Source of the DNA: Sphaerolaimus hirsutus
Taxonomy: Eukaryota > Nematoda > Chromadorea > Monhysterida > Sphaerolaimidae
Direction of reading: 5' to 3'
Assembly (NCBI GenBank): GCA_964036195.1
Contig: OZ038456.1
Location: 124,001-188,000 of the forward strand
Length of the DNA: 64,000 bases
How positions within the stretch are numbered: the stretch's first letter is position 1; the number at the start of each line of letters is the position of its first letter. This document shows positions 391 to 42,944 of this stretch, one piece after another. A model generated the notes under the pieces. It made no database searches. It was not told the origin of the DNA and saw only the letters and a list, made by a program, of their open reading frames with translations. The position numbers and the translations under genes are program-made.

Positions 391-3300
391 TCACAGAATG
401 TCATCTCCCTGGATAACACAATGTTGTTGATAGTTGACCAGTTGTTGTCCAGACACATTCTGACCACCTTGCACCAATGTGGCCTCACCCTCTGCTGCAT
501 TATAATGAACTGTAGGTCCCAGTTTGCTGAGTTCCCTCTGAGAACCATCATCCATTGACCTCTGACTCTGTTTTGGCTTTGCTCTAACTGTCCTTGTTGT
601 CATGTTGATACAAAATCCAAATAGCTTGATGATTGCCCTGAAGCATGTTCCAAATGCTTTGATTGGTAACAATGGAAGTCCCTTGCTCACTCTGTATGTC
701 CCATACATGTACAGTCCATATCCAATTAGAAATATTGCCCCTCCAATGATCAGTAAGTTCAGCATAAACTGCACTGGTCCTTTTAAGATTCCATTGCACA
801 TTGAATTGCTGCCACTCAGTGTCCCTTTGACAATGTGACCAATCTCCTTGCCGACACCCTCATAAAATCCTCCAATTCCTTGACCAACTCCAGCTATTGA
901 ATTCTTGATGACAGCTGGATCCAGTGCCCAGCTGGCTGTGTAATCTGTCAATTTCTTTGTCATGTGCTCTAGCTGCTGAAGCTTTTGAAAGTGGTAATTT
1001 GCTTCCCATAAATTAAAGTTGATGTTGGCCAGGCTGATGTGGAATATGCTTGATGCATTGAGTGTGAAGGCTGTCCATTTGCTTTTCCATGTCAATTCAA
1101 TTGGCAAAGTTGATACATGTACATGTCCTGGTCCATTTGCTGTTGTCCATTCCCCATCATCTAGTTGGAAATAGTGTGGAGTGGCATGTCTGCAATCCTC
1201 TGTTGGTGAATGCTGCAGAAGGTCTGAGCTGCCTGGACTGATAAAGTACAGTTGTCCACCTGGCTCAATTTGCACTGGAGTGTACTTGTAACAAGTCCCT
1301 TCATATTTTCCAGCAAAGTGCACTATTTTTGGCTTTACTTTCTTGCATTCCCAAAATATCACAGCTTCTCCTGCCCATTCTGCATGAACATCTTCTCTGC
1401 TCATCAAAGCTCTGATGCCCATTGTTGGATTCAGTCTGAAGAATTGCCCGATCAAATTTAATTGGCTCTGTTTCATTGTGCACATTTGTTGCCACACTAA
1501 GCCAAATTCTCTTTTTTCCATTTCAATAATCTTTTGAGCTGCATATTGAATTTTCCCCAATTCTACAGCTTCAATTGGTGCATCAAAGATCTGACTGATA
1601 TCTTTGTTATCTGTTTTTGTGTTGAAAACTGTGAAGTTTATCATCTCTGTCTTGAATTGTAAGAATACTGCTCCTTGATCAACATAGAATGCATCCTGTG
1701 GTACACATTCTGCATTTGCTGGCCATTTATTTTTATGTGTCACAGAATATGCACTCTGAATTTCTTCTATAATGACACTTTGTTTACTGATGCTGCCAGC
1801 ATATCTTCCTTGGAATTCATAGGCACATTGGTGTTTGAATTTGGTTCCATTCCAGACTGTCACAGCATGCATGACATCATGACAATATCCAGCCAATGGA
1901 GAGCATGCTGACAAGTCTTGTAAGTCTGATACCAATCTGTGCCCATCCAGTGATGCCACTTGTCCTTTCCCAATGACAAAGTTGATTGCTTCATTCTCTT
2001 TGTCAATGCAGCACCACTTGTAATTTACCACAAGTGTTTGATTGGTTGACCATAAGTCATCATTGAGTTGCATCATTGGTTGCTCTTTCCATTTCTGAGT
2101 TTTGACTGCATTCCAGCATTCATTGGTGTCCACTCTTTCAAACTGGTGAATGTCTCCAATTATGCCCTTGCTGCCAAAAATTCCCATATTGGTTGTGATG
2201 ATGTGATGATCAATGTAGCATCTGTATGCTACTGCTTTCTGTGGCTCTAGCCTTTGTGCCCATAAATTGACTTCCTGTTTCATCACTTTGTCTGTGACAG
2301 GAAATTTGCAGTGTATCTTGTCTGGTATTGCAATTGCATGCCCATTTTTTGCCTTTGTGCACAGGTTGAACTGTTTGCTGTATTTTTGCTGCCAATTGGT
2401 TGTTGCTTTTGCACCAGACATAATCACTGATATGATTGTCAACACCTGCAATCCTACCATGAAGAAATCTGCATATGTCTGCTGTCTCCTGGCTGCCCTG
2501 TGTGGATTCTTTCTTATGTCTGGTGGTTGTGCTGGTTTGTTTGATGGATTCTGTGGATCACCATGTTCAACTGTTTTAACTTTCTCTGGCCATTGTCCAT
2601 CATAGTCTTGCACTTCTAATGGACACAGGTGGACAATTGGCCTCTCAATGTGTTTTCCACTTTTCAGTTGTACTTCTGCACTTCTGATCCATCCATCCTT
2701 GCTTCTGTTCAATTTCTGAATCCTTCCCAGTTTCCATGCACCTCTTGGTAAATTCTGCTCTTTGATCAGTACCACTGCACCAACTTTGGGTTCTGCTGTG
2801 ACATCTCTGTTGCTTTGTTTCCCAAAGTTGTATCTATGTCTGAGCATATCCAGATACAGCTTCTGCCATAACTGCCATAATTTCTCCTTCTTCTGTTGAA
2901 TTGCATCCCAAATTTCTGTCATTTTTTGTTTTTCATTGTTGGCTGGTGTGTATTCTGGATCAGGATCCTTGCTTTGATTACGTTTATTTTCTGTCAGTAC
3001 TTTTTCCACAGGATTTGATCCTGTGTGGTCCCCCAGCAGAAAATCCATTGGCCTCAGGACTTGAAGTGTGTCCATTGTATCACCCACATATGTCAGTGGT
3101 CTGCAGTTAGACACCCTTTCCACCTCTAAGACCATTGTGCTGAGTTCCATCCAGCTCAACAGTGGGTTGTAATTTGCTGCCTGGGCTTTCCTCATGAGTT
3201 GTTTGATAATCCCCACAATTCTCTCATACACTCCACCTTGCCATGGTGCAAATGGAGTTATGAAGTTCCATTGTATGTTTGGCAGATTCCTGGCCAATTG

Positions 3301-6300
3301 TCTGAATTGTGGTGCATTGTCCAACCAGATTTTGTGTGGTGTATTCCTTCTGCTTTCAAATCTGGAGAATGCCATCTGAGTTTCTGCTGCTGTCATATTT
3401 GGCACAAGCTCCAAGTGTGCAGCTCTTGTGCTGAGGCATGTCATCAGAAGGACATATGCCTTTTTGCTTGCTTTCTGCTCTGCATCATTCACTACTTGAT
3501 ACCATAATGGGCCAAAGTAATCCATGCCTACATGGTGAAATGGCCTATGCAACTCTGCCCTTTCCTGTGGCAGTGTTCCATACACAGGTTGTTTGTATGG
3601 CCTTCCTGTGACTTTTCTGCACACCACACATTGTTTGATTATGTTGTGTGTCATGACTCTGCCTCTGTGGATCCAAAAACTTTCCCTGAGCTCTGCCAAT
3701 GTGTGTGTTACTCCAGCATGCATCACACTTCTGTGGTAATGTTCAATGATCAACTTTGTGATGCAGCCCTTTTGTGGCAGCAGATATAATTCCTGATTGC
3801 AATCCATATCAGGAATCCTAGTCATCACTTTGACAATCCCTTTGACACTGTCAAATTTTAGTTCCTTGCCAGTGATGCCCAAATGCTTCTGGAAGGGCAC
3901 ATTCTGCTTTTGTGCCTCCTTCATCTGTTTTATCTGATCTGCCAATTGCATTTGTTGTGCAACTTTGACCCAGTACTCAGTAGCTGCATGCCATTCACTT
4001 TCCATGAATGGTGTCTCTTTGATATTCAGAGTGATACCTTGGCATGTTGATTTCTTGTGATGTCTATTGCTCAAATATGCCACAAATCGCATCACTCTGA
4101 TTGTAACTCTGAGTAACTTGTCCCATTTTGAGAACCTCTTTGGATCAATCTGGTAGTGATTCTCTGTTTCTGCTATGAAATCCTTTGTTTCTGACTCCTG
4201 TTGTGTTGTCATTCCAACCCAGATTGATGATTTTGGCATGATGAACTCGTGTTCAATCTCTGGTTTCAAATCTGGTGGCACTAACTCACTCTCTGGTTGA
4301 AAATCTGGTGGCAACTCTTCTTTGAAACCCATTGGTCCTGTCCACCAAATCTCTTTTTGTTGAAGCTCTTGCAGATCACATCCTCTGGAAGCAATGTCAG
4401 CTGGGTTGTCTGCTGTGTCAATTTTGTTGACCTGCACATTTGTCTCAGCTTGGATGGCTTGAATCTCTAAAATCCTGTTTTTGACAAAGCATGCCATTGT
4501 TTTGTTTGAGTGGAGCCACCACAAGCAACAAATGCTGTCTGTCCATAAATAACTTTTGACAATGTTCCACTCTGCCACTTGTTCCAGCAAGAATTTGACC
4601 ATTCTAGCTCCAATTGTCAAACCCAACAACTCCAGCCTTGGAATTGTGATTGGTTTGCCTTTCTGTTTGTTTGGGGCCACTCTGGATTTTGCAAAAATCA
4701 GTTTCATTGCAAATTGTCCATTTTGTAACTGCTGTCTAAGGTATGCTGATGCTGCATATGCCTGTTTTGATGCATCTGTGAATACATGCAATTCCATTGC
4801 TTCTGAGGGTTTAATGGGCTCTAATGTCCTTGACCACTTGATCTGATTGACTTGTCTCTGCAATTCTTTTATTTCTGCAAACTTCTGATTGTAGTGCCCT
4901 GGTACTTCTGTTTCCCATTCTAATTGACCTTTTGACTTGATTTCTGCCCAGATTTGCTGCATCAGGGCTTTCAGAGTTACTGTCACCGGGCACAGCATGC
5001 CCATTGGGTCAAAAATGGCTGAAATAAGCTGAACCAGAACTCTTTTTGTTAATTTCTGTGGAAGTGGATTGACTGCACCCTTTGGTTTGCTGATATTGAG
5101 TGTGTCTGTCTCTGTATCCCAATGCAGTCCAAGCACAGTGACTTCTTTTGTTTCACTCTGGTCCTCTGCATTGAAGAACTTTCTCAACTCTGCACTATTT
5201 GTGGTCCAATCCCTCATGTTCATTGATGCCAAATTGAATGCTGCTTTGATGACATCATATTTCTGTTTGGCCAGATCCACTGAATCCACACTGAAGATCA
5301 AATTGTCCACATAAATTCCATCATTTATGCCCTTTAGCAAATGTGCATTTGCCAAACTCTCATTCTCCACAAGGACTTGTAGATGGTGTGTGATGACAGC
5401 ACCCAACAACCATGGGCTTGAAATCACTCCAAATGGCATCCTGACAAATCTGTACAGTTGTAGATTGTTCTCCATGACTGGTTTGGTTGGATCTTTGTAC
5501 CACCACCATCTGGTCAGATCTCTGTCTGGCTCTTGTAACACCACTTGCAAGAATGCCTTTTCAATGTCTGCAATGATGCCAATGCTGCTAGCTCTGAATC
5601 TGAGTAAAAGCCCAGCAAGCTCTGGTAAGATCACTGGCCCTCTGTGCAAGCAGTCATTCAAACTGAGGTGATTTTTGATGCTGGCTGATGCATCATAGAC
5701 AATTCTCAGCTTTGTTGTTGCTTTGCCTGGTGTTTCCACTGGTTGATGTGCCAGGTAGTGGATTTTTCTGTCATCCGTTGGTTGACCATAAACTTTTTCA
5801 ATGATGCCCTTTTGGAGTTGTTCTTCAATCACTTTATTGTATCTCTGGAGTAAATCCTTCCCTCTGTCATCTTTGGCAAATCTGTTTGTCAGTGCTTTGT
5901 GCCTTTGTAATGACATTGCTTTATTGTCTTGCAATTTGTCAATGCAGTCCTTGTAAGGCCATTTGACATGGTATCTGAGATCCTTGTACTCAGTTGTTGC
6001 ATGGAATTGCTGTGTTGCTTTTTCATCATCATTGATGATTGGACAATCTTTTATTCCAATTGTCTCTAATTCCCAGAATTCTTCAACTCTTGGGTTTGAA
6101 ATTTGAATTGAACTGCTGCTATTTCCATTGTTGACAGCCAGCTCATAATTCTGCTCAGTTGCAAAATGCATTGTGAAGACACTATTGCTATGTGTGTCTC
6201 CATTTGTTGTGCCATCCTGACCATTGATCATCAGCCCAAGTTTGCTTTTGACCACATGCATTCCAGACGGCAATTTGATTGTGTCCTGTTTGGTCATGAA

Positions 6301-8442
6301 TTCCCAATACACATCCAAACCAAGGACTATATCAGGGATGCTTTGTTCTCCATTGGAGTTGATTGGTTCTGCAAACAACTTGTTTGCCTGTTGGCCCCAC
6401 TTCTGTTGGATGAATTCCAAATCATCCTCTGACAGGTTATGGTGGGGTTGGATTGTAGCCAGTGTTTCAATTGCATTTGCTGTGATTGTCTGTCTGGAGC
6501 CATCCTTCAATTGCAAGTCCAGCTCCACAATCTCAGCATTGACATTCATTTTCTTTGTGGTTCCAAAGGTGCCCAGCCCAATAGTTACTGCAATTTTGGG
6601 TTGAAGCTTCAACTTCTTCATGAACTCCTTTGACACAAATGTCCTCTGTGCCCCTGAATCCAAGAAGATCTTGGCACTTTGCCAAGGTACTGACTGATCC
6701 TCTGGGTTGCATGCCATTGCTTTGGCAGTTTGCATTCTGACTGGTCTGTATTGAAATGTCCCTGTTTCTGTTTGCATTTTGTTTATTGTTGCATTTGTGA
6801 CATCCACATCAATTGTTGAATTCATTGTTTCTTCTGTTGGTTGATGCAGTCTGTCTGTGGCATCCAATTTGTCCAATTTTGTGGCTGCCATTGGTTGACC
6901 TGCCATTGCCATGGCAGTCATTGTCTGTGGCTTGTTGCCCTGGTTGGTGGATTTATGCCCACCACTGCCTTTACTAGGCTGTTTCATCCCATTACTGAAC
7001 TGTTCTGGACAAAGTGCTGAAGCATGTTGATTTCTGACTTTGCAGTAGAAACATCTGAGGTTGGTTCTGCATTCCCTCTTGTAATGTCCCTTTCTGGTGC
7101 ACTTGGTACATCTGTCTTTTGATTGCATCAATTTCTGCATTCGGTCTTGAGTTGTTGTATGTTTCCTGCACTCTGAGCTGAAGTGATTCCCTTCACAGAA
7201 GATGCAATATGGGTTGCTGTTTGTTGAAGCTGAGAATGCACTGGTGGTTGTTACTGGTTTCTGATCTCTTTTCTGATGCATGTTCTTATTGAAGTTGGAC
7301 TCTTGTTTATCTGATGTTTCTGTATCAGCTTCCTTCCTCTGTTCAATGATTTTTTCCAAACTGCTCAAAATGTTTGCAACTGACCATTCTTCCTCTTCAC
7401 CCTTTATTTTGACAATTTCAAGTCTGATGTTGCCAGGAATTTTGGATCTGATCATCTCAACTGTTGCATAATTGTTCATGTCTTCATTCTGAGATCTGAG
7501 TTGGTACACCAGTGACTGCACTTCTCTGTGAAAACTCTGCAAGCTTTTGTAATGTCCTTTTGGTTCTGGTACTTGCTGGAGTTTTGCATACAATCTTCTT
7601 TTAATGTCTCTTGTTTTTCCATATTGCTTTTGCAGGATCTCAATTGCCAATTCATAATTGCCCTCAACTACCCTGATTCCTTTGATGGCATCAAATGCCT
7701 CCCCAGCCACATATTTCAGCAGGTACTGGAACTTTGTGATCACTGCCATATCTGTCCTTTTGTGTATCACTTGCTCATATGATTGCCACCAAGCATCCCA
7801 CTGGATGACATCACCAGTAAAGTCCCTCAACTCTAACTTAGGCAACTTGGCCTCCACCAACCTTGGTGTTGTTCTCTGAGTTGTATTTGGTTGACCCTCG
7901 CTAACTGTGGTTGTTGCTGGGTTGTAGTTCTGTTGCTGAGAGAATGAGCTTGTCCCTGTGCCAGTGACTTTTTGCAGGTATTCTTCCAGTGACTGAATAC
8001 CAATGTTCAATCCAATGATTTTGTCTTCCAGCTGTTGAATCAGGTTCAAGTGTCCTTCTGCACTTTCCAAGTGTTCTGCATATTTCTGTTCTTCTTCACT
8101 CAGAATGACTTGGGATTCTTTCATGCCTTGATTTGAAAGAGCCTCTAAATTTGTCAGAACATGTCTCCATTCTATGTCTCTCTCTGTTAATTTCTGTCTA
8201 CTTGCTTCACACTTGTCTCTCAGATTAGCCATAACCACTCTGGTCTGTTTGGCATTTGAGACATTTTCATGAGTGGCACTCTCTTTCACATGTGTGAAAA
8301 CTGGTGCCACCTCTGCCAACAGAGTCTTTGCATGTTTCCTCTGTTGTCCCAAAATCCTTCTAATTGATCCAGAACCCACTAACTGTGGAACTGCAGTGCC
8401 ATTCCCTGACTGTGCCATGATTCCAGTTGCCGGCTGCGCCAT
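391..8442 (-). CDS. E1 gag-pol-env polyprotein (2683 aa)
   Basis: A single open frame encodes every product of the retroelement. Seen in order: a gag region with a Gln/Glu-rich N-terminus and CCHC-type knuckles starting near C413 and C445; an aspartic protease with D595-S-G-A; a reverse transcriptase whose catalytic box reads Y-V-D-N at 1044-1047; RNase H (FTDAS, LELLG, WTDS motifs near 1222-1330); an integrase with an HHCC-type zinc site near 1570-1605 and catalytic D1641, D1708 and E1740; then an env-like part with a hydrophobic signal-like stretch near 1996-2014, many Cys and N-glycosylation sites, a Gly-rich amphipathic segment and a membrane anchor near 2561-2580. The start ATG uses the last LTR base as its A. 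The frame is undamaged. The Asn in the RT box is unusual and may be a lineage trait or a defect. Env assignment is by position and architecture only. Confidence 0.93.
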   Translation of the reverse strand: MAQPATGIMAQSGNGTAVPQLVGSGSIRRILGQQRKHAKTLLAEVAPVFTHVKESATHENVSNAKQTRVVMANLRDKCEASRQKLTERDIEWRHVLTNLEALSNQGMKESQVILSEEEQKYAEHLESAEGHLNLIQQLEDKIIGLNIGIQSLEEYLQKVTGTGTSSFSQQQNYNPATTTVSEGQPNTTQRTTPRLVEAKLPKLELRDFTGDVIQWDAWWQSYEQVIHKRTDMAVITKFQYLLKYVAGEAFDAIKGIRVVEGNYELAIEILQKQYGKTRDIKRRLYAKLQQVPEPKGHYKSLQSFHREVQSLVYQLRSQNEDMNNYATVEMIRSKIPGNIRLEIVKIKGEEEEWSVANILSSLEKIIEQRKEADTETSDKQESNFNKNMHQKRDQKPVTTTSAFSASTNSNPYCIFCEGNHFSSECRKHTTTQDRMQKLMQSKDRCTKCTRKGHYKRECRTNLRCFYCKVRNQHASALCPEQFSNGMKQPSKGSGGHKSTNQGNKPQTMTAMAMAGQPMAATKLDKLDATDRLHQPTEETMNSTIDVDVTNATINKMQTETGTFQYRPVRMQTAKAMACNPEDQSVPWQSAKIFLDSGAQRTFVSKEFMKKLKLQPKIAVTIGLGTFGTTKKMNVNAEIVELDLQLKDGSRQTITANAIETLATIQPHHNLSEDDLEFIQQKWGQQANKLFAEPINSNGEQSIPDIVLGLDVYWEFMTKQDTIKLPSGMHVVKSKLGLMINGQDGTTNGDTHSNSVFTMHFATEQNYELAVNNGNSSSSIQISNPRVEEFWELETIGIKDCPIINDDEKATQQFHATTEYKDLRYHVKWPYKDCIDKLQDNKAMSLQRHKALTNRFAKDDRGKDLLQRYNKVIEEQLQKGIIEKVYGQPTDDRKIHYLAHQPVETPGKATTKLRIVYDASASIKNHLSLNDCLHRGPVILPELAGLLLRFRASSIGIIADIEKAFLQVVLQEPDRDLTRWWWYKDPTKPVMENNLQLYRFVRMPFGVISSPWLLGAVITHHLQVLVENESLANAHLLKGINDGIYVDNLIFSVDSVDLAKQKYDVIKAAFNLASMNMRDWTTNSAELRKFFNAEDQSETKEVTVLGLHWDTETDTLNISKPKGAVNPLPQKLTKRVLVQLISAIFDPMGMLCPVTVTLKALMQQIWAEIKSKGQLEWETEVPGHYNQKFAEIKELQRQVNQIKWSRTLEPIKPSEAMELHVFTDASKQAYAASAYLRQQLQNGQFAMKLIFAKSRVAPNKQKGKPITIPRLELLGLTIGARMVKFLLEQVAEWNIVKSYLWTDSICCLWWLHSNKTMACFVKNRILEIQAIQAETNVQVNKIDTADNPADIASRGCDLQELQQKEIWWTGPMGFKEELPPDFQPESELVPPDLKPEIEHEFIMPKSSIWVGMTTQQESETKDFIAETENHYQIDPKRFSKWDKLLRVTIRVMRFVAYLSNRHHKKSTCQGITLNIKETPFMESEWHAATEYWVKVAQQMQLADQIKQMKEAQKQNVPFQKHLGITGKELKFDSVKGIVKVMTRIPDMDCNQELYLLPQKGCITKLIIEHYHRSVMHAGVTHTLAELRESFWIHRGRVMTHNIIKQCVVCRKVTGRPYKQPVYGTLPQERAELHRPFHHVGMDYFGPLWYQVVNDAEQKASKKAYVLLMTCLSTRAAHLELVPNMTAAETQMAFSRFESRRNTPHKIWLDNAPQFRQLARNLPNIQWNFITPFAPWQGGVYERIVGIIKQLMRKAQAANYNPLLSWMELSTMVLEVERVSNCRPLTYVGDTMDTLQVLRPMDFLLGDHTGSNPVEKVLTENKRNQSKDPDPEYTPANNEKQKMTEIWDAIQQKKEKLWQLWQKLYLDMLRHRYNFGKQSNRDVTAEPKVGAVVLIKEQNLPRGAWKLGRIQKLNRSKDGWIRSAEVQLKSGKHIERPIVHLCPLEVQDYDGQWPEKVKTVEHGDPQNPSNKPAQPPDIRKNPHRAARRQQTYADFFMVGLQVLTIISVIMSGAKATTNWQQKYSKQFNLCTKAKNGHAIAIPDKIHCKFPVTDKVMKQEVNLWAQRLEPQKAVAYRCYIDHHIITTNMGIFGSKGIIGDIHQFERVDTNECWNAVKTQKWKEQPMMQLNDDLWSTNQTLVVNYKWCCIDKENEAINFVIGKGQVASLDGHRLVSDLQDLSACSPLAGYCHDVMHAVTVWNGTKFKHQCAYEFQGRYAGSISKQSVIIEEIQSAYSVTHKNKWPANAECVPQDAFYVDQGAVFLQFKTEMINFTVFNTKTDNKDISQIFDAPIEAVELGKIQYAAQKIIEMEKREFGLVWQQMCTMKQSQLNLIGQFFRLNPTMGIRALMSREDVHAEWAGEAVIFWECKKVKPKIVHFAGKYEGTCYKYTPVQIEPGGQLYFISPGSSDLLQHSPTEDCRHATPHYFQLDDGEWTTANGPGHVHVSTLPIELTWKSKWTAFTLNASSIFHISLANINFNLWEANYHFQKLQQLEHMTKKLTDYTASWALDPAVIKNSIAGVGQGIGGFYEGVGKEIGHIVKGTLSGSNSMCNGILKGPVQFMLNLLIIGGAIFLIGYGLYMYGTYRVSKGLPLLPIKAFGTCFRAIIKLFGFCINMTTRTVRAKPKQSQRSMDDGSQRELSKLGPTVHYNAAEGEATLVQGGQNVSGQQLVNYQQHCVIQGDDIL
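8424..8441 (-). other. E1 tRNA primer-binding site inside the gag start
   Basis: Directly after the LTR terminus ..CACAACA the minus strand reads TGGCGCAGCCGGCA, the same 14 bases that follow the E2 5' LTR at 22606. A TGG start fits pairing with a tRNA CCA end. The segment is also gag codons 1-6. The complementary tRNA 3' end would resemble a tRNA-Ser type; that is inference. Confidence 0.7.
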
Positions 8443-9285: not shown

Positions 9286-9368
9286 ACTGACCGTGAGTGC
9301 GTCGTGCCCCATGCGCCTGCGCAACTTCCCCATGGACATGCAGCGCTGCGTGCTCAGCATCGGCTCGT
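9286..9368 (+). CDS. Grd: Receptor exon a: Cys-loop (83 bp)
   Basis: Acceptor cgcag, donor GTGAGT. It begins with the last base of a split Arg codon and encodes LTVSASCPMRLRNFPMD onward to IGS. An 83-bp exon covering the Cys-loop is a conserved feature of GABA-A/glycine receptor genes. A likely branch point (ctgac) lies at 9269-9273. Confidence 0.88.
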
Positions 9369-12300
9369 GTGAGTTCTCTGGCCATCGAGCCAATAGACGT
9401 GTTTTGAACAAGGAGAAAAAGATTTGAACTCGCATTTGAAAGTTTATCTAGTTATTTGTAAATTTATGTGTGTTTTGTAGGAAGCCGCAATTAAGCGTGG
9501 TAAAAATTTCCATGTTAAGCAGCTGGGTGAAATCGTCATAAAGTGTCGGACATCAATCCTATTTTAGTCACAACAACTTCCTATTTATAACGCTCAACAT
9601 AAATACTGATGGTACCAAACATAGCAAAATATAAAACACAAAAATCAGCAGCCAGCAGCCAGCAGGCTCCCCTCCCTCTAACACGACACCCCCTTTTTGT
9701 ATCGTTCACTGCAAACGACTCCACGTGCTTCACGCAGTCGGCTACCGGGCGAACGACATCGTGTACGACTGGTCGAACGTGGTGGTGGTGCGCGCCGACA
9801 TGGCCCAGTTCGTCAAGCAGACGCACATGACCAGCAAGCGATTCGTCACCTTCAGAGACGGTGCCCCAACTACCGTATTTGCTTGAATAGTTCCCCCCTT
9901 GAATAGTTCCCCCCTCGAATAATCCCCCCCCCTGTAAGACGAGTGAGGAAATAATAATCCCACCCTTGAATAATCCCCCCTTTGAAGATTTGATTAATTT
10001 GTTGTACCTAATTTTAACAAAAATGACACGTTATTATGTTTATGAAGCATATTTCGTGAAAGTAGTTGATAGAAACATGTTTGAAAATTTTTACGGAATA
10101 ATAATTCCCCCTTGAATAATTCCCGCCCTCGAAAAGTCCCCCCCTCAAAAATGTCTGACAAAATAATTATCCCCAAGGGGGATTATTCAAGCAAATACGG
10201 TACGTGTTCTTGCATGTACACGTCTGCTCGCCCTGGGGGCAGTCACGCACATTGTAAAGTGTGAAGTAAAGTGTCAAATACCACACAAATTTGTCATATT
10301 TACGTTTTTGAGGGGGGGGGAGTTATTCAAGGGTGGGGAGTTATTCAATGGGGGGGAGTTATTTTTGCCTCATAACTTTTAGGAAAACTTGCAGGTAGGT
10401 ATGTGTGTATACACTGCGCAAAATACGCACTGTGTATCTTTATTCACAAAATCACAATTATTCACAAGTTTCACTAGGAAAAACGTAAAAATGTGAATTC
10501 CTCATATGGAACTATGCAATGATTGAAAGGGGAAACTGAAAGTGCGCCGGGCACCCCGACTCCACTCGCAGGGGAGTACTCTAAGCTGGAGGTGACGTTC
10601 ATCCTGAAGCGGCAGCTGGGCTTCTACGTGATGAACTTCTTCATCCCCGCCAGCATGGTCATCTTCCTGTCTTGGCTGCCCTTCTGGCTGCCCAGGGAGG
10701 CCACCGCCGACCGTCTCGGCTTGGGTAAGTCTTTGTAGTTATACTCAGCCGATATGACACTAGGTTTTGAACCTACCATAACTAGGGTGTCAACTTTCCG
10801 TTTTCCAAAGACAATTTTTTTCCGTTTCCGTTTTCCGGCTGCAAAATTTTTTTCTGTTTCCGTTTCCGTTTTTCCGGCTCATTTTCCGTTTTCCGGCAAA
10901 ATTTTCCGGTTTTTCCGCCTTTTTTCCGTTTTCCGGTTCAATTGTCTGTTTTTCCAACTTTTTTTCACTTTCCAGCTCAATTTTTTGTCTTCTGTTTCAG
11001 GCAAACTGGTAAACATGCATGCAGGCTCTCAATTATGTGATTTTTTCCCATTATTAGTCAAATTTCTGCAAATTATTTTATTTCTGGATAAATTTCTGCA
11101 AATTTTTTCCGTTTCCGGCATATATAAGGTAAATTTTTCCGTTTCCGTTTCCGTTTTCCGCCAAAAAGTTTTTGTTGACACCCTAACCATAACCCATCTG
11201 AATAATGAACCAAAAAGTATAAATGCGGATTTTTCATCATAATATTTCGTTATAACGGAGTAATTAATTATTAATTATTATGGAGTAATAAATTACGAAA
11301 TTTATGACAATATTGTATTCATTAAATTATGGTAGGATTTTGCGCATACTCTGCCGTCCACCGAGTATACTGAATATGACTCAGAGGCAGTGCTTTTACA
11401 ATTTAAAGATGAAGAGTGGAAATGAAACGAATTCGCCTAGTTTGGAGAATTTAAACGGTTTTGCGACTTCCTGTATTAGTCATTCATTTCATGGAAATCA
11501 TTTCACTTCCCCGAATACCTATTCGATATTCGCAAACAACTCTAGTACCACTGGCAGGTGTGACCACGGTGCTAACGATGACGTTCATCGGTGCGGAGAG
11601 CAGACAGGACCTGCCCAAGATCAGCTACCCCACGGCGCTCGACGTGTTCGTGCTGGTGCCACCCCAGACCTTGTGAAATGCCCTGGAAAATGTCAAATGC
11701 CATGCAAAGTGTCAAAAGTCATGTAAAATGCACTGGAAAGTGTCAAATGCCTTGGAAAGTGTCAAATGTCATGCGAAGTGTCAAATTCCATGCAAAGTGT
11801 CCTGGAAAGGGTCAAATGTCATGCGAAGTGTCAAATGCCATGCAAAGTGTCAAAAGTCATGCAAAATGCCCTGGAAAGTGTCAAATGCCCTGGAAAGTGT
11901 CAAATGTCATGTGAAGTGTCAAATTCCATGCAAAGTGTCATAAGTCATGCAAAATGCCCTATAAAGTGTCAAATGTCATGCAAAGTGTCAAGAGACTTTA
12001 AACACTTTGCATGACATTTGATTTGGCATTTTACACGGCATTTTACAGGGTCTGGGTATGCCCCCAGATCTGCTTTGCGCTGCTCTTCATGGCCATCATG
12101 GAGTGCACCTTGGTGCACATCACCACAAAGTCGGTTATGGTGTCACCCCGTTTGGGGCATCTTTTGAGTGGATCTCCTTCTATCTGGTGGCTCTACCGCC
12201 AGTGTGTACCTAAACCAAATTTCCATTTTTGGTGGCTGGTTGGTGTCGAATACTCTCAGCTCATTTCGATCCGAATAAGCGGAATTTCTACCTATTTTCA

Positions 12301-15300: not shown

Positions 15301-16479
15301 GTGTAAAGTAACCGGAGTATATCTAGTGCAATTTTCTAGTGCAGTCGCGCAATTGAGGCAAACGCAGGTATGGCACGGGCGACCCCGAAACGCAGTACGT
15401 TGAAGATGAGCGCGTGCAGCAGCTCAAAAAGATGGGTCTGTTGCCGCACAACATCAAGCGCGAGATCAAGGCCATGCGCAGGTCAGTCCCAGCTGCTGTC
15501 TAGGGTGTCAACTTTCCGTTTTTTTCAGTTTTAGTTTTCCGATGGCAAATTTCTTTCCATTCCCGTTTCCAATTTCTGGCCGCTAAATATTTTTCTATTC
15601 CCGTTTTTCCAGCTCATTTTCGATTTTCTCGGCTCATTTTTCTGGCAATTTTTTTCCGCCTCATTTTTCTTCTTTTTTTGTTGCAAAATTTCTGTTTTTC
15701 TGGCTTTCTGTTTTCTGTTTCAGCCAAAATGTAAACATGTATGCAGGTGTGTCAATTATGTGAATTTTTCTCGTTTATAGCTAAATTTCGTCAATTTTTT
15801 CATTTCTGGAAAAAGTTCTGCAATTTTGTTGCTGTTTATGGCAAAATTCTTGCAAATTTTGTCCATTTCCAGCCAAATTTTTGCAATTTTTTTCAGTTTC
15901 CATGTAAATTTTGCTTTCCGTTTTCCGGCATTGAATTTTTCCTTTTTCCTTCAAGCGCAAAATTCCATTTTCCATTAATATTTTTGGACCCTACTCCCAT
16001 CACAACCAAAATCAATTCAACCAGGTGGCAATCCCTAGCTCTGTAAAGTAAAGTGTCAAATGTAAAGTCGAATGCAAAGTTCAGTAATAAAACTTTTTCT
16101 TTTTTGTTTTGATGGACACTTTACTTTGCATTTAACTTTACATTTGACACTTTACTTTACACTTCACAGGGCTTGGGATTGCTCCCCGCTCGCTGGTAAA
16201 CGCAATTCATTTGGCCGCAGACTGGACAAGTACTACTGCGGCAAGGGGGGCACAAGTGTGTCGGGCGACTCGTCGCTGTGGGCGCGTCTGCGGCGGGGCA
16301 GCGCGCTCGTCTACGCGCAGTGGGTGCAGCGCGGCAAGAAGGCCGACCCGCACGACGTGTCCATCAACAGCGTGAGCGTCATCGACCGCGTGTCCAGACC
16401 CGCCTTCCCGCTGCTCTACGTCCTGCTCATACTCGTCTACTGGCAGATCTACTTCGCGCACGAGTCGCTGCACGGCTGA
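9286..16479 (+). CDS. Grd: Cys-loop ligand-gated ion channel subunit, Grd-type (last seven exons)
   Basis: Exons: 9286-9368, 9738-9860, 10572-10724, 11558-11655, 12068-12129, 15368-15481, 16221-16479. All have GT/AG borders and consistent phases and give 296 residues plus stop. The product is the C-terminal two thirds of a pentameric receptor: a 15-residue Cys-loop (C-x13-C with FPMD), the IGSFGY strand, M1 (GFYVMNFFIPASMVIFLSW), M2 (VTTVLTMTF), the M2-M3 loop DLPKISYPTALD, M3, a short intracellular loop and M4 (SRPAFPLLYVLLILVYW) six residues from the end of the membrane segment to a short tail. The M1-M2 linker reads TADRLGLG, with acidic Asp where anion channels have PAR; this matches insect Grd as I remember it and suggests cation permeability. 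Upstream ligand-binding exons lie beyond E1, outside the window. The family is secure; the Grd assignment is less so. Confidence 0.85.
9369..9737 (+). other. Receptor intron a/b, no recognised repeat
   Basis: 369 bp, AT-rich, with a pyrimidine-rich tract before the acceptor cacgcag at 9731-9737. No repeat family from this window is recognised in it. Confidence 0.7.
9738..9860 (+). CDS. Grd: Receptor exon b: ligand-binding loop C region (123 bp)
   Basis: It reads (F)GYRANDIVYDW then VRADMAQFVKQTHMTSKRF and ends in a one-base phase completed by exon c (Gly). The distance from IGSFGY to M1 is normal for the family. The donor is gtgcccc, weaker than the others. Confidence 0.83.
9871..10202. mobile_element. 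TACCGTAT-family MITE in receptor intron b/c
   Basis: Terminal inverted repeats TACCGTATTTGCTTGAATA and its complement at the right end enclose G/C-run arms (ttcccccctt, ccccaaggggga). It starts only 10 bp after the donor of exon b. The family recurs at 18561, 35168, 42331, 52689 and 53450. No target duplication is visible here. Confidence 0.75.
10203..10571. repeat. Remnants of two MITE families in receptor intron b/c
   Basis: 10228-10300 reads CTGGGGGCAGTCACGC then tgtaaagtg-rich DNA, one end of the AAAGTGTC family that forms intron d/e. 10308-10370 is a G-run block (gagttattcaagg) like the TACCGTAT family interior. Neither has an identifiable second end. The rest is unique AT-rich DNA up to the acceptor ctcgcag. 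Confidence 0.5.
10572..10724 (+). CDS. Grd: Receptor exon c: M1 and selectivity-filter linker (153 bp)
   Basis: It encodes GEYSKLEVTFILKRQLGFY, all of M1 and the linker PREATADRLGL, ending at the conserved split Gly codon before M2. The donor is GTAAGT. Asp at the -1' position is visible in this exon. Confidence 0.92.
10783..11185. mobile_element. TAGGGTGTCAA hAT-like element, TTTCCG-rich (copy 1)
   Basis: Begins TAGGGTGTCAAC and ends GTTGACACCCTA, with exact 8-bp duplications ACCATAAC (10775-10782 and 11186-11193). The interior is a run of ttttccg variants and holds no intact coding region. An 8-bp duplication fits hAT-type transposition. Its target, read without the insert (ctaccataacccatctgaat), is itself the end of another inverted-repeat element also seen at 13485. 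Confidence 0.88.
11558..11655 (+). CDS. Grd: Receptor exon d: M2 and M2-M3 loop (98 bp)
   Basis: It encodes (G)VTTVLTMTFIGAESRQDLP onward to DVFVL. The end at 11655 was chosen because it joins in phase 0 to exon e and gives an M3 of normal length; the next in-frame bases (gtgccacccc) belong to the inserted element. Confidence 0.85.
11656..12067. mobile_element. Introner-like element: AAAGTGTC-family MITE that constitutes intron d/e
   Basis: The whole 412-bp intron is one inverted-repeat element. Its left end (GGTGCCACCCCAGACC then TTGTGAAATG) pairs with its right end (CATTTTACAGGGTCTGGG then TATGCCCCCAG) over about 45 bp. The interior is some sixteen degenerate repeats of about 21 bp (gtgtcaaatgccatgcaaa). 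The donor GT and acceptor AG both fall inside the terminal repeats. Other copies (42486-42662, 16021-16203) have termini reading CTGGTGGC or GCCACCAG, so GT and AG are inherent to the family. The intron splits the M2-M3 coding block, which as I recall is one exon in vertebrate relatives, consistent with intron gain. Confidence 0.75.
12068..12129 (+). CDS. Grd: Receptor exon e: M3 (62 bp)
   Basis: Reads ICFALLFMAIMECTLVHITT and then two bases of a Lys codon completed at 15368. Acceptor cccccag is the last bases of the inserted element; donor is gtcggt. M3 hydrophobicity and length fit the family. Confidence 0.82.
12130..12418. other. Start of receptor intron e/f, nothing recognised
   Basis: Unique-looking DNA of mixed composition; I see no gene or repeat family here. 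Confidence 0.6.
12419..12592. repeat. TACCGTAT-family remnant
   Basis: The left part taccgaaatttgctcgaaata and the right part gggtatctcgaggaaat match the family ends with substitutions. The core is shortened. Flanking DNA to 12902 has no recognisable feature. Confidence 0.5.
13485..13625. repeat. Nested small inverted-repeat element
   Basis: AATGAAATCTACCATAACCC at the left end pairs with gggatatgctaggtttcatt at the right, with internal ttctttcattcag complementarity. Outside it, copies of gtaatgtcgcyggagtata at 13364, 13460 (inverted) and 13635 suggest a further disrupted host element. Confidence 0.6.
13687..13860. mobile_element. AAAGTGTC-family MITE (short copy)
   Basis: Starts gcagtcccagacacctgtaa and ends near ttttacagggca, with tgtcaaatg and gacactttgcatgacatt blocks in inverted order. 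It lacks clean termini. Confidence 0.55.
14131..14480. other. Intron e/f, imperfect inverted phrases only
   Basis: Phrases such as tggacatctaaacacac (14196) and gtgtttggatgtccagg (14386) are inverted relative to each other, suggesting a decayed foldback element. Nothing coding is seen. Confidence 0.4.
14481..14800. repeat. GTGATCAGG/GAAGTG palindromic repeat block
   Basis: Repeated phrases tgatctgc, ggtgaagtg and cacttcac occur in both orientations, forming several short hairpins. A similar phrase set (gaagcgtgtggaag) occurs at 42945-43130, so this is probably a decayed foldback family. Confidence 0.45.
14851..15027. mobile_element. TAGTACACC-family MITE (copy 1, 177 bp)
   Basis: The left end tagtatacgatcgaaatttg and right end caaagttgcactggtgtact are inverted repeats. 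A better-kept copy is at 17778-17950. Confidence 0.65.
15028..15367. other. End of receptor intron e/f, nothing recognised
   Basis: Unique-looking DNA ending with the acceptor aacgcag before exon f. No repeat family is recognised. Confidence 0.6.
15368..15481 (+). CDS. Grd: Receptor exon f: intracellular M3-M4 loop (114 bp)
   Basis: It completes Lys, then reads YGTGDPETQYVEDERVQQL and continues to KREIKAMR, ending two bases into an Arg codon. The donor is gtcagt. The K-Y-G junction after M3 fits the family. The loop is short and charged. Confidence 0.85.
15501..15993. mobile_element. TAGGGTGTCAA hAT-like element (copy 2, decayed)
   Basis: Starts TAGGGTGTCAACTTTCCG 19 bp after the exon f donor. 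The right end is degenerate (ggaccctac) and no matching duplication is visible. The interior resembles copy 1, including the gtaaacatgtatgcagg core. Confidence 0.7.
16021..16203. mobile_element. AAAGTGTC-family MITE upstream of the last receptor exon
   Basis: Left end CAGGTGGCAATCCCTAGC; right end ACAGGGCTTGGGATTGCTCC. Inside, aaagtgtcaaatgtaaag pairs with ctttacatttgacacttt. It ends about 18 bp before the exon g acceptor, so its right arm lies where the polypyrimidine tract and branch point should be. Confidence 0.75.
16221..16479 (+). CDS. Grd: Receptor exon g: M4 and C-terminus with stop
   Basis: Acceptor ggccgcag joins AG|A (Arg) to exon f. It encodes LDKYYCGKGG, a charged loop, then VIDRVSRPAFPLLYVLLILV, a short tail AHESLHG and TGA at 16477-16479. 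It is strongly GC-rich compared with its flanks. Confidence 0.88.
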
Positions 16480-18017: not shown

Positions 18018-19268
18018 CTGCACAATGGACATCTGCTGCGTGCGCGGCAGACCGACCAGCCTGTCGTAGCGCACCTGCATCGAGTACACGTTAGATAGAT
18101 GTCTCAAGGGTGAGTACAGTGTGAAGAAACGCCCTCCCGAACCCGCTGGACATCTACATCTACTGTTGGTTCTACACTTTCAAAAACGTTTTTGTTAGTG
18201 TTAAAAGTGAGGTAAAATATCATTCAACCTGTCAAAAGTCATTTAAAATATCATTCAAAGTGTCAAAAGTCATGTAAAATGACCCGTATGATTGAAATCT
18301 TCCTTTGAAACTGCCCCCAGGGTGCCCAGCCGAGAACAAGCGTGCCAAAAGCAGCACCCCCCCCCCCCCCACGGACCATTCTAATCACGAAGAACACGTA
18401 GAGACTGAAGAAGACCCAGACGAGGGGGGAGAGGTGCTCGTTGAGCACCATCACCAGCTCGTAGTTGTCGGCGAAGGCGGACATCTGCGGGCCGCGCAGC
18501 ACCAGCAGCACGCTGTTGTTCACCAGGAACGAACCTGCCAGCGAGCTAATGCTTTACAGATACCGTATTTAGGTACTCGAAATACCCCCCCGGGGGGTGA
18601 TTGTTTCAGGGTGAGAATTTTGAGGGGGGGGGGGGGGGTTAAACGAGGGGGTATTTAGAGGAAATACGGTATTTATTTAGGTGAAGAATGATACTCGGCG
18701 TGAATGGTAATAGCTGTAGTCTACTGACGGCACGCACACCTTACCGAATGAAATCTACCGTATTCCATCGGAATAAACGAACAGTCATTATTTTTTTCTC
18801 ATCATAGAACATCACAGCTCACTCTTTTGGATAATTTGGTGCACAATTCTTAATAATTGTGTAATAATAAAAAAAGCCCGGGATAATGCATAATTTTCCA
18901 GTGTGCGTCAACTAGCGCACCTTGTATGAGACAGCAAAAAACGATGAACAATGCGCGGTTGGTGACGAGCGCCAGAGCGACCGCCAGCCACGCTGCGAGA
19001 ACGTCGCCTGCGACAAGTCATTACCGTATTTCTTCCAATAGAAGACGTGTGTCAGCGAGAAGCACGCACCGGCGAGTCTGACGGCGAAGTACTTGCACGA
19101 GTCCCAGCTGGGGCCGAGACTGGTGCCCCACTCGGTGACGTACATGTAGCCGGCCACCATGGCCCAGTAGCACACGTTGAGCACGACGAGCAGCGCGTAG
19201 CCGGCGGTCGCGTGCCGCACGTGGTCCTCGGTGGTCAGCTTGGCGCCGCACGCGCACATGTCGGACAC
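18018..19268 (-). CDS. Multi-pass membrane protein, possibly gustatory-receptor-like (four internal exons)
   Basis: Minus-strand exons in order: 19268-19070, 19007-18921, 18534-18377, 18074-18018. Every border is GT/AG and the phases chain 0-1, 1-1, 1-0, 0-0, giving 133 codons without a stop. Hydrophobic segments: GYALLVVLNVCYWAMVAGYM; DVLAAWLAVALALVTNRALF running into FIVFCCLIQ; and LSPLVWVFFSLYVFFVIRM. The phrase ELVMVLNEHLSPLVW (Asn before a membrane entry) recalls insect gustatory-type receptors, but I do not recognise the family with certainty. Neither the start nor the stop is in reach; the remaining exons were not found. The introns contain a MITE (18561-18671), AAAGTGTC-like repeats and a solitary transposon end. 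Confidence 0.5.
18185..18360. repeat. AAAGTGTC-family remnant in a minus-strand intron
   Basis: Repeats of gtcaaaagtcatgtaaaatg, ending in aaactgcccccagggtg, match one terminus (CTGGGGGCAGT reversed) of the family that forms receptor intron d/e. It lies in the intron between exons 18534-18377 and 18074-18018. Confidence 0.5.
18561..18671. mobile_element. TACCGTAT-family MITE, short copy
   Basis: TACCGTATTTAGGTACTCG at the left and gaggaaatacggta at the right, with G/C-run arms and no core. It lies in the minus-strand membrane-protein gene intron. Confidence 0.7.
19008..19069 (-). other. 62-bp intron carrying a solitary transposon end
   Basis: Positions 19022-19043 read taccgtatttcttccaatag, the terminal repeat of the MITE at 51454-51886. 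Reading it as coding would give FYWKKYG between membrane segments; treating 19008-19069 as an intron (donor GTGCGT, acceptor TCGCAG) keeps the frame and removes it. Confidence 0.5.
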
Positions 19269-22623: not shown

Positions 22624-22736
22624 AGTTTACTAGGTGTCACACAAACGGCTTTTTGCGGAGAGCCGCCCAGCAGCAAATTTTGAAAATTCAAACAAAATCA
22701 CAACAAATTGCTTTAATTCACACAGAATTCACAAAA

Positions 22737-25631
22737 ATGAGTGATTTAACAGCGACTAGGCCGATGCGCGCGTCGCTCAACGCGTACCGCACGCAAGCGA
22801 TCACGCTATTGAAAGAAAATATACCTTATTACAAGGCTGACCCTACGATTTCGGCGCAACAAAATATCACCGTGGCAGAGAGTGCCATAACTGCACTAAT
22901 TCACCTCAACAACAAAGTCACTATAAAATCGGAATGTCTACAAACAGCGGCCGATAAGTATTCTGAACTAGTGCAGCAGATAATTAGAGAAGCAATGCTC
23001 CCTAGTGCGGCTGCCAGCGCAAAAGACTTAGCTTCACAAGAAACAACAAAAATGGAAGAAGTGCTATACAACGAGCAAGGCTTCTATGTGGTCATTGATA
23101 AATTGAGAGAGCGCAGCGCGTACCTACTGGCGCAAATCGAAGTCACAAAACGACAAATTCAGGACTTAAAACATCCAAGTGAGTCCTTGAATGCTTCGGG
23201 CACAAGTTCCTCGGGTAATCAAAACACCCCAACGAGAAAACAAGGATTGCTGAGAATGCCAAAAGTAGATCTCAAAAAATACGATGGCGACCCATTAAAA
23301 TGGGAAACCTGGTGGAATATTTATCTTGACCAAATTCACACAAGAGATGACCTAACTGAAGGGTTGAAAATGACGTATCTGAGCTATGCGTTAACTGGTG
23401 AAGCTGAAAAGCTGCTCGCCGGAAAAAATTCTGATGGGTCTGATAATGACACCACAATAGAACTACTGAAATCAAATTTCGGCGACACAGCTCAAGTCAC
23501 AAATGCGTTGTGGGGGGCGCTAAATAAACTGGAAACACCATCGAGCAGAGGTGACAGTTTAATGGCTTTCCATCGCGACTTATGCGCGACCCTCTCACAA
23601 TTAGATAAAAGAGGTGAAACGGTTGAATCGGGGTCAGTGTTGAATAAAATAAAAAGCTATTTAACAAATAACATTTTAATTGCAGTGTCAGAAGAGGACA
23701 GAAACGCGCGCCGAGGCCAACCAGAAGCATCCATGACAGTGAACAGGTTCGTGAGTGCTTTACAAGCCGTGGCAAAAGCGCGAATGTCAATTCTGACCGA
23801 TAATTCAGAAAAGTCACAAAACCAAACAAATGCAACGAATCAAAGTAAATTCAAAAAGAAGTCACAAGTTTTTCACAACACGGTGGGGTTTTCTGGTTCT
23901 GAAGTAAAAGATGACAATTCACACAGCTCGGCGGCGGCAGCTACTCAGAATGCTGGGTACCGCAGCGCACCGAAGAAAGATGAAAAATCGGTGCCGCCCA
24001 CCTATGGGTGCCTGTTCTGTGAATACACCAATCACTACTCTACGGACTGCAAAAAGTTCCCGGATGTAGCATCTAGAATTCAAAGCCTAAAAAAGAAGAC
24101 AGAAACCTGCCTGCGATGCACTAAATGGGGTCACTTGAAGAAAGATTGTCACACAAACCTTTCATGCTACTACTGCCGGGCGAGAGAAGAACATCACAGC
24201 GCTCTGTGTCCCGTGCAGTTTGGTGGAAAAAAGAACGTCAAAACTCAACAAAACAGCTCAAATTCACAAACTACGACGAAGCGCAGTTCGACGGAGAAGA
24301 CTGGATCGACGACTGCGAACAGCATGCATGTGTATTCAGAGACACAAGAAGACAGCACACTGGCAGCAGCAGCGCCGATCCGGAATTCATCAAGTAAGCC
24401 TAATTTGTACCCAACGGTACGTTTGCAAGTGGCCCGGGCAGCAATTTTAAATAAAGAAAATGGTCTGACGTCTGATTTTCTGGACATTTTCTTTGACTCA
24501 GGGTGCGAATATTCATTCATAAAGGCAGAAATCGCTGAAGATTTAGAATTACCAGTAAAAAGTGAAGTCACATTGAGAATGAATGTATTCGCGACCCCAG
24601 AACCAATAAAAGTAAAAGCTAAAATAGTAGAGGCACATATCCCAATGGGTCACAAAAATAAAGATGACATCAAATTAACTTTGAGAGCAGTGGAAGACTT
24701 AGCAACATACTGCCAACCACCCCCATTATCTGACAACGACAAAAGAACAATTTACAGACACTGGGGCACCAATGCCCAGCGCAAATTTGCCGAAAAATTC
24801 GAGCCAGATAAAACGAAATCACAGTATCAATTGAACAAACCATCGCTGGTGATAGGCCAAGATAATTTTTGGAAGTTTCACATACAACCCTCGGGAGTCA
24901 TTTTGCCCTCAGGGTTACTCGTAGTTGAATCAACCCTGGGGAACATGTTTGCAGGGGCAATTAACAGTGTGGACAATGAAAATGATGACAACATCATCTC
25001 GGCCTCGTCAGCGTGTTCATCAACTGCAGTTGCTGTAGGTAAAGAAACGCTGCGAGAATTTCACAGTTTAGAAGCGGTCGGCATCAAAGACGACCCATAC
25101 GCCGTCGATGATGACGTCGCGGAAGAATTGATAATAAATTCCATTCAATTCAACGTCACAGAAAATCGATACTACGTCGATTGGCCATATAAAGATAATA
25201 TAAAAGATCTACCAACCAACAGGGCTGAGGCCTTTTCTCGATTTAAATCGTTACTTAGAAGATTACAAAAGGATCCCGAGTTGTTCGCCACATATGCCAA
25301 AGTGCTGAAAGATCAGATGGAACAGGGGGTGATTGAGGAAAGCCCCGAAAACGCAAAAAATGAACAAATCCATTATTTGCCACATTCACCAGTTCTCACA
25401 CCGGGTAAATCAACTGCCTGCCGCATTGTTTATGATGGCTCAGCAGGCAAGCCAAGTTTAAATGAATGTCTTTATCGAGGACCAATTACAACCCCTTTGG
25501 CATTGGGTCTCTTGATGCGGTTCCGGGGGGGCAAATTCACATTAATGGCGGACATCGAGAAAGCATTCCTACAAATTGGGTTGCACCCACAAGCACGAAA
25601 CTATGCAACGATCACCGAAACTGCAACCTGA
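22737..25631 (+). CDS. E2 gag-protease-RT N-terminus (broken by deletion)
   Basis: Start ATG at 22737 (acaaaaATGa); the open frame extends further upstream but without another ATG. Seen: an N-terminal gag with DUF1759-like composition (GDPLKWETWW near residue 190), three Cys-rich knuckles beginning at C425 (CLFCEYTNHYSTDC, CLRCTKWGHLKKDC, CYYCRAREEHHSALC), protease D587-S-G-C, and RT motif A with D939 (MADIEKAFLQ). After about residue 950 the frame runs into a non-homologous tail and stops at 25629-25631. Comparison with E1 puts the loss at about 150 codons, including the Y-V-D box. Gag and protease may still be made. Confidence 0.9.
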   Translation: MSDLTATRPMRASLNAYRTQAITLLKENIPYYKADPTISAQQNITVAESAITALIHLNNKVTIKSECLQTAADKYSELVQQIIREAMLPSAAASAKDLASQETTKMEEVLYNEQGFYVVIDKLRERSAYLLAQIEVTKRQIQDLKHPSESLNASGTSSSGNQNTPTRKQGLLRMPKVDLKKYDGDPLKWETWWNIYLDQIHTRDDLTEGLKMTYLSYALTGEAEKLLAGKNSDGSDNDTTIELLKSNFGDTAQVTNALWGALNKLETPSSRGDSLMAFHRDLCATLSQLDKRGETVESGSVLNKIKSYLTNNILIAVSEEDRNARRGQPEASMTVNRFVSALQAVAKARMSILTDNSEKSQNQTNATNQSKFKKKSQVFHNTVGFSGSEVKDDNSHSSAAAATQNAGYRSAPKKDEKSVPPTYGCLFCEYTNHYSTDCKKFPDVASRIQSLKKKTETCLRCTKWGHLKKDCHTNLSCYYCRAREEHHSALCPVQFGGKKNVKTQQNSSNSQTTTKRSSTEKTGSTTANSMHVYSETQEDSTLAAAAPIRNSSSKPNLYPTVRLQVARAAILNKENGLTSDFLDIFFDSGCEYSFIKAEIAEDLELPVKSEVTLRMNVFATPEPIKVKAKIVEAHIPMGHKNKDDIKLTLRAVEDLATYCQPPPLSDNDKRTIYRHWGTNAQRKFAEKFEPDKTKSQYQLNKPSLVIGQDNFWKFHIQPSGVILPSGLLVVESTLGNMFAGAINSVDNENDDNIISASSACSSTAVAVGKETLREFHSLEAVGIKDDPYAVDDDVAEELIINSIQFNVTENRYYVDWPYKDNIKDLPTNRAEAFSRFKSLLRRLQKDPELFATYAKVLKDQMEQGVIEESPENAKNEQIHYLPHSPVLTPGKSTACRIVYDGSAGKPSLNECLYRGPITTPLALGLLMRFRGGKFTLMADIEKAFLQIGLHPQARNYATITETAT

Positions 25632-42330: not shown

Positions 42331-42944
42331 CCCCGTGTATTTCCTTGAAATACCCCTTTCGAAATAACCCCCCCTGAAAATGGACACTATGAATTTATAA
42401 ACCCCCGGCGAAATACCCCCCCCCCCCAAAAAAAAAATATAGTGTACAGAGAAAGTAAATGACAAAAGCTACGGTTGTGATCAGGGGGCAGTCCCAAGCC
42501 CAAGTAAAGTGTCAAATGTAAAGTCAAATGCAAAGTAAACTGTCAATCAAAACAAAAAAAAAATTTATTACTGAACTTTGCATGACAATTGACAGTTTAC
42601 TTTGCATTTGACTTTACATTTGACACTTTACTTTACACTTTACAGGGCTTGGGATCGCCACCAGGGAAATGCAGAACACACGCTAAAAACAATGACTGTG
42701 TTATGTTAGAACAGTATTTATACCGTCTACGTAATTATATAAGTCTATAGTCTTATACATGGCGGTTTTTGTTGCATTTTTCGACGTCTGCGTACGTTAC
42801 AAACAACGAATTAGTACCGGGATGTAAAAAATTTTCTGGCGAAATAATAACCCCCCCCCCTCGAAATACCCCCTCGTTTAAGCCCCCCCCGCTCAAAATT
42901 CTCACTCTGAAAATATAAACCCCCTGGGGGTATTTCGAGGAAAT
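42331..42944. mobile_element. TACCGTAT-family element interrupted by an AAAGTGTC MITE
   Basis: Left ccgtgtatttccttgaaata, right gggggtatttcgaggaaat. The core (ttatgttagaac, gacgtctgcgtacg) is the family core in reverse orientation. The insert is at 42486-42662. 42945-43140 beyond it is a gaagcgtgtggaag-rich block. Confidence 0.72.
42486..42662. mobile_element. AAAGTGTC-family MITE, best-preserved short copy
   Basis: The left end CAGGGGGCAGTCCCAAGCCC pairs with the right end GGGCTTGGGATCGCCACCAG. aaagtgtcaaatgtaaag and its complement form the arms around an A-rich centre. Its right terminus, GCCACCAG, carries the AG (and by symmetry the GT) used as splice sites in receptor intron d/e. Confidence 0.82.

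Follow-up and report, generated by a model that had tools for sequence, protein, structure and literature searches.

A mobile element appears to make new introns in the genome of the nematode Sphaerolaimus hirsutus, and sequence comparisons suggest that it most likely represents a large introner family. One such intron, in a receptor gene within the 64,000-nt stretch of DNA analysed here (the window), is very probably an introner insertion of a non-autonomous NuwaI-type element that is spliced at the borders of the element and its target triplets. The initial annotation had attributed this intron to an inserted non-autonomous DNA element. This attribution is supported, as the putative intron consists of the element plus one copy of the target and the same arrangement recurs in unrelated genes.

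Among the matches listed, the best named relatives of the receptor are arthropod GABA receptor alpha-like/Grd proteins, and the closest Grd matches are collembolan, insect and chelicerate, mostly at 42-46%. Translation and homology place its exons on the forward strand at 9286..9368 (Cys-loop), 9738..9860, 10572..10724 (M1 and the beginning of M2), 11558..11655 (M2 to the start of M3, ending ...ALDVFVL) and 12068..12131 (the remainder of M3, ICFALLFMAIMECTLVHITTK, beginning ICFALLF; 3' border approximate). A probable M4 exon with the stop codon, also on the forward strand, was located by motif search at 16249..16476 (start approximate); its match to the C-terminus of PF02932 (E 0.045) is below the Pfam cut-off. 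In addition, a loop-D exon is present at C9:122.5 kb, and C9 also has an N-terminal exon at about 121 kb. None of the M3-M4 loop exons of this gene was found, nor was the exon that follows loop D. As far as found, i.e., with the N-terminal and loop-D exons, the Cys-loop, M1, M2, M3 and the probable M4, the gene looks intact.

According to the translation, the 412-bp gap between the last two of these M2-M3 exons is in M3 of a Grd-type GABA receptor, and its removal would neither add nor drop a residue. Joining the exons across 11655/12068 gives a match to PF02932 (2.6e-24), and no gap interrupts the joined protein at the junction, either in the four alignments displayed with GABA-A chains or in 13/13 aligned homologues, which were hand-picked from 120 listed and comprise arthropod Grd-type proteins and one annelid protein. 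This bears out the in-phase join and normal M3 described in the initial annotation. The last codon before the junction is L here and F, A or N in the 13 homologues.

The putative intron (GTGCCA...CCCCCAG, phase 0) covers 11656..12067 on the forward strand, exactly where it had been placed initially, and its borders are given by translation, inverted-repeat scoring and the alignment of the tips. Tip alignment delimits a NuwaI-like MITE of 409 bp at 11656..12064 (L001 1507-1915), with end 1, GTGCCA, at 11656 and end 2, whose reverse complement is GGGGCA, at 12064. The element is preceded by a CTG triplet at 11653..11655, which has the same position as the CWG duplications elsewhere and would remain in the mRNA as a Leu codon. 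Translation and tip alignment show that it is followed by a CAG triplet at 12065..12067, all of these on the forward strand. The 409-bp element and the 3-bp triplet make up the 412 bp, with nothing left over. The borders are those of a canonical GT-AG U2 intron, with GT at 11656 being the first two bases of the element and AG at 12067 being the end of the CAG that is the target-site copy in other insertions.

Terminal inverted repeats had been reported with a length of about 45 bp. They are present, but the well-matched length in the receptor copy is about 36 bp: in the outer 53 bp per side, 31/36 aligned positions are identical, and the repeat begins 7 bp (left) and 11 bp (right) inward of the intron borders. 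Further, both splice sites were thought to be inside the repeats. The GT does belong to the element but is located in the tip just outside the well-matched repeat, while the AG comes from the target duplication and lies just outside the element. An equally high inverted-repeat score was obtained in 1/1981 random 412-bp stretches of the window, and the score is 47 for this intron versus 11, 17 and 11 in three other introns of the receptor gene. End 2 starts with GGG and end 1 with GTG. Inside the element, a tandem array of period 19, with longer periods scoring too, covers 11672..11991 on the forward strand, and no ORF of 180 aa or more is present in the receptor copy. As RNA, the element-intron is predicted to form a hairpin of -138 kcal/mol (z -7; 0/100 shuffles equally low), which in the model brings the intron borders together. 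A smaller element, ending at the inner TCCCAAGCC repeat, was considered and dropped, as the conserved tips reach out to GTGCCA/GGGGCA.

Within the element, an alternative acceptor ACAG at 12045..12048 (forward strand), 19 nt upstream of the border, counts against splicing at the element borders. Used together with a donor at 11673, it would add 36 nt (VPPQTLVWVCPQ) in frame to M3. Both inner sites look usable, and reading by hand shows the addition to be stop-free in the receptor copy. However, extra residues are found at this position in 0/13 aligned homologues, and twelve added residues would break M3. Moreover, copies with the usual tip length would keep 37 nt, giving a frameshift (also by hand). 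We consider use of the inner sites highly improbable and take the borders of element and triplet as the splice sites.

The genome searched consists of 348 Mb in 762 contigs and contains the window. A DNA search with the intron as the query gives at least 173 matches, and two kinds of tips, GTGCCAnTCCCAGACCCTGTAAAATG and GGGGCAnTCCCAGACCCTGTAAAATG, can be read from the copies. One tip of each kind is found in 59/65 bounded copies from the genome segments analysed, while the other 6/65 have the GTGCCA-type tip at both ends. The family was initially described as repeated in the window. Copies do recur there and the family is far larger: genome-wide there are 7106 GT tips with the CAG pattern and at most one mismatch, against 0 in a reversed control. 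Exact GT tips with CTG number 1900, and exact GG tips 1760 with acceptor CAG and 1185 with acceptor CTG. By position, the first 11.92 Mb of contig C1 contain 100 CAG and 87 CTG tips, from which we guess that about 2,200 exact CAG-GT tips exist genome-wide. Pairs of exact tips span 116-347 bp, plus one at 953. The family is short, TIR-bearing, non-coding and of high copy number, i.e., it is a MITE family.

A repeat search in the window gives two related copies, both unstranded, one upstream of the M4 exon at 16025..16185 with CAG/CCG flanks and one at 42485..42661 with CAG/CAG flanks. The intron at 9861-10571, between receptor exons, starts with GTGCCCC and contains a truncated NuwaI-like tip at 10233 as well as inverted copies of another repeat at ~9865 and 10170-10200. 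At 18199-18311, a possible exon is preceded by NuwaI-like tandem units that finish with ACTGCCCCCAG and for which a left tip is not seen. A 1.6-kb array at 62254-63890, with 12/26/38/50-bp units (TTTGACTTGACA type), is similar to the tandem interior of the MITE and possibly is a satellite derived from it. The window also contains two long retroelement regions, 391-8442 on the reverse strand and 22653-30558 on the forward strand, which we take to be of the gag-pol type; the first is one uninterrupted frame of 2683 aa. Finally, there is an inverted repeat at 60844-61276 (203-bp arms, 99% complementary, 27-nt loop) and a 161-bp unit that occurs twice, head to tail and 100% identical, at 54055-54378.

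The flanks of the copies show a duplicated CWG triplet. In 59 bounded GT..GG copies, counted with a one-base shift of the right border allowed to reach CWG, with both tip-selected samples described below included and with the receptor copy left out (its tip is one base short), the triplet pairs are CAG/CAG in 21, CTG/CTG in 15, CTG/CAG in 8, CAG/CTG in 1 and other in 14. The pair is thus an identical CWG in 36/59 copies and differs only at W in 9/59, while the 14/59 copies with other flanks count against our reading. Pairing by position only on C1, the 100 CAG donors have 24 CAG and 1 CTG acceptors, with 75 lacking an exact acceptor tip, and the 87 CTG donors have 17 CTG and 7 CAG acceptors, with 63 lacking one; donor and acceptor triplets match with a Fisher p of 8e-7. 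CTG/CAG outnumbers CAG/CTG by 8 to 1 in the bounded copies and by 7 to 1 in the C1 pairing (p 0.07), two overlapping data sets. Such an excess is consistent with an acceptor AG being selected for, without proving it. An 8-bp hAT-like target duplication was dropped as a candidate, as the 8-bp flanks mismatch whereas CWG matches. Contigs C14 and C15 (L005 and L023) share one larger duplicated segment with two NuwaI-like copies, and the W of one target triplet is not the same in the two.

From its signature, a CWG target and a GGG start of the TIR, the element family is probably of the NuwaI type. NuwaI belongs to the PHIS superfamily and is described from animals, with the TSD 5'-CWG-3' and TIRs of 12-61 bp starting with GGG (PMC4482050). 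The CWG TSD is shared with our family. Its TIR, about 36 bp long in the receptor copy, is within this range and starts with GGG at end 2, but with GTG, which would give the donor, at end 1. Autonomous NuwaI copies would carry a DDE transposase and a Myb/SANT partner. Intron making is not mentioned in the sections of PMC4482050 used for this comparison.

The arrangement seen in the receptor is also found in other genes. The flanks of copies were joined minus one triplet and compared with known proteins (Pfam, PDB), and a protein match spans the junction at 8 other copies. These are found in GluCl (L003; PF02931 1.6e-14, PDB 3rhw 6e-14, one-residue gap at the junction), IFT122 (L043; 8bbf 1.5e-25, gapless at the junction, Pfam giving none), IFT80 (L047; 8bd7 1.6e-12, gapless), Na/K-ATPase (L070; 8zyj 6.7e-15, gapless, and PF00689 4.2e-8), PAN (L063; PF00024 6.6e-5, alignment not displayed), CHGN (L079; Pfam 1e-6, alignment not displayed), ALKBH7 (L085; 4qkd 4.7e-22, gapless at the junction, Pfam below cut-off) and BCKDHA (L086; 1v1m 2e-14, gapless at the junction, and PF00676 (E1_dh) 4.4e-5). 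The closest matches of the ALKBH7 copy are nematode and hymenopteran, the best at 60%. As expected for introners, element borders and inferred intron borders coincide at the receptor and at these 8 copies, and many similar inferred introns are present in unrelated genes of one genome.

It could be argued that an old intron existed at this codon of the receptor and was later replaced or filled by the MITE. Repeats are common in introns, and copies or fragments of the family are found at 10233 and 16025 inside longer receptor introns. However, no remnant of an older intron is seen, and both borders are on element ends, here and likewise at the 8 other copies. Borders that recur exactly in unrelated genes would not be given by an ordinary repeat-invaded intron, and an old intron is very unlikely compared to introner insertion. 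The receptor gene also probably contains a second intron formed by the family, at 7013-7190 of L031. This copy is flanked by a signal-peptide-like stretch and by NITRLLDGLLGGYDKKIRPG, a sequence similar to the conserved Grd start; conservation is limited to the downstream side, and no Pfam match was obtained.

Two fixed samples of 20 tips each, one for CAG and one for CTG, were taken by selecting each fifth tip from listings of 100 on C1; all 40 map to its first 13.1 Mb. In the CAG sample, a second end with CWG is present for 14/20 tips (12 CAG, 2 CTG), doubtful for 2/20 and absent for 4/20, with the pairing of L064 being ambiguous and differing between two tallies. In the CTG sample, the second end has CWG for 17/20 (10 CTG, 7 CAG) and ATG for 1/20, with none for 2/20. 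A junction-spanning match in Pfam or PDB is found at 5/40 sampled tips (L063, L070, L079, L085 and L086), where sense joined frames were tested for 21/40 tips, picked as more coding-looking. Extrapolated roughly to all exact tips, this would mean that a few hundred copies are exonic. The CTG sample was planned as a control and expected to contain no exonic copies; that it does contain them is evidence against a strict AG rule.

Many joined frames gave no Pfam match. For the first five, 1/5 matched, while L018, L029 and two L007 frames had no match. For ten others, 2/10 were above the cut-off, with L071 (Tyrosinase, E 0.097) and L059 below it, and no match was obtained for the joined frames of L031, L033, L037, L041, L043, L005 and L029. 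Among further sample frames two were above the cut-off (CHGN and E1_dh), and of the weaker matches L085 alone was borne out. Coding-looking frames that are not counted are L018, L029, L033, L037, L041, L059, L065, L068, L069 and L071, as well as L077, L078, L081, L083, L084 and L088-L091. L041 may be a GPCR, L033 a tectonin and L071 a tyrosinase, all three being tentative labels. In the antisense direction, 0/9 joined frames had a Pfam match, in a small comparison, and by eye none of the 31 longest antisense frames looked coding.

The ALKBH7 and BCKDHA copies, with CTG/CTG in conserved exons, have TG instead of AG at the border and are not GT-AG introns. The missing acceptor AG implies that these copies are either spliced as GT..TG or not spliced at all. 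The exonic copies, in part or in full, could then be recent unspliced insertions (dying genes or segregating nulls), in which case the in-frame join would simply reflect the target duplication, as any clean insertion joins in frame once one triplet is removed. Read-through of the element hits a stop in 9/9 copies tested, which is in line with this reading. However, the hundreds of exonic copies that the sample scales to would be a large number of nulls for one genome, two likely copies are found within one otherwise intact-looking receptor gene, and the excess of CTG/CAG over CAG/CTG is expected under selection for AG. Unspliced insertions are therefore improbable, and we favour spliced introners.

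The GT end is upstream on the coding strand in all 7 orientation-informative copies (the receptor, L047, L063, L070, L079, L085 and L086), a tally based on more tests of sense than of antisense frames; L003 and L043 are uninformative, as each of their ends carries a GT-type tip. A reversed copy at 8308-8676 in L047, with the GGGGCA end upstream and CAG/CAG flanks, seemingly interrupts a C-type-lectin-like exon in frame (Lectin_C E 0.024 for the joined frame, below cut-off). This copy does not fit splicing from GT. Removal of the element at the DNA level in the soma, similar to the internal eliminated sequences of ciliates, would account both for this possible reversed exonic copy and for the CTG/CTG copies. 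However, both the orientation bias and the lack of Pfam matches in the antisense frames argue against it, and DNA elimination is extremely unlikely.

We suggest that the receptor intron arose by an introner insertion, a gain that would be specific to this lineage. A NuwaI transposase encoded elsewhere would move the element into a CWG triplet within the M3 coding sequence, and the triplet would be duplicated. With the GTGCCA end facing upstream on the coding strand, the borders would read exon-CWG|GTGCCA... and ...TGCCCC-CWG|exon. Splicing from the first GT of the element to the end of the downstream triplet would then take out the element and one triplet and give back the old mRNA. If the target was CAG, the insertion would be a ready-made GT-AG intron. 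In the receptor the two target copies differ, CTG in the exon and CAG at the acceptor, which counts against this mechanism. We propose that one of the W bases was altered later, or was mispaired when the element inserted. As the homologues have F, A or N at this codon, the original target is more likely to have been CTG (Leu) than CAG (Gln). Most likely, CTG became CAG at the acceptor and was retained for providing the AG.

A more speculative scenario, possible although not probable, is that a NuwaI MITE became an introner by a change of one TIR tip from GGG to GTG, which would provide a splice donor in one of the two orientations of insertion. CAG insertions would be spliced at once as GT-AG, while CTG insertions would first be spliced as GT-TG and later, once the T of the downstream triplet had mutated to A, as GT-AG. 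The receptor (CTG/CAG) would then be matured, and ALKBH7 and BCKDHA (CTG/CTG) would be immature.

In 2019, Henriet et al. reportedly described many non-canonical introns of MITE origin in the tunicate Fritillaria borealis. This is likewise an animal with non-canonical introns; here, the donor stays GT and the acceptor alone varies. A 2025 paper reportedly deals with horizontal transfer of introners. No title among the introner papers listed since 2023 concerns this NuwaI-type family, although an earlier report of it may exist.

Introners are repeated introns that derive from DNA-transposon-like elements with TIRs and TSDs of 3-9 bp (PMC9860276). Families with their own 5' site and a 3' site from the TSD are described there, the mRNA length is mostly unchanged, and in the survey of Gozashti et al. 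2022 introners were found in two animal groups alone. The family described here shares with these introners the TIRs, a 3-bp TSD, a predicted donor of its own, a predicted TSD-derived acceptor and presumably the lack of a net change of the mRNA. It differs by a NuwaI signature in an animal and by copies at CTG targets without AG; the term superfamily is absent from the main text of PMC9860276. The terms introner and Harbinger occur together in PMC8476143. The introner elements of Amoebophrya form hairpins, have inverted repeats and often use non-canonical splice sites, with 3-5 nt direct repeats at the exon borders and, in the account given in PMC7789003, no family-specific repeat motif. While Amoebophrya is a dinoflagellate parasite with motif-less elements, here a single family has fixed tips.

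The origin of new introns in animals is a long-standing question. This family is copy-rich and readable, with the target triplet, donor and acceptor legible for each insertion. Intron birth would be directly testable, as the CAG and CTG targets form a natural experiment on acceptor choice, and introners would be tied to a named transposon group. The introner kind is already known; what may be new is a NuwaI-signature family in an animal and, possibly, a non-canonical variant.
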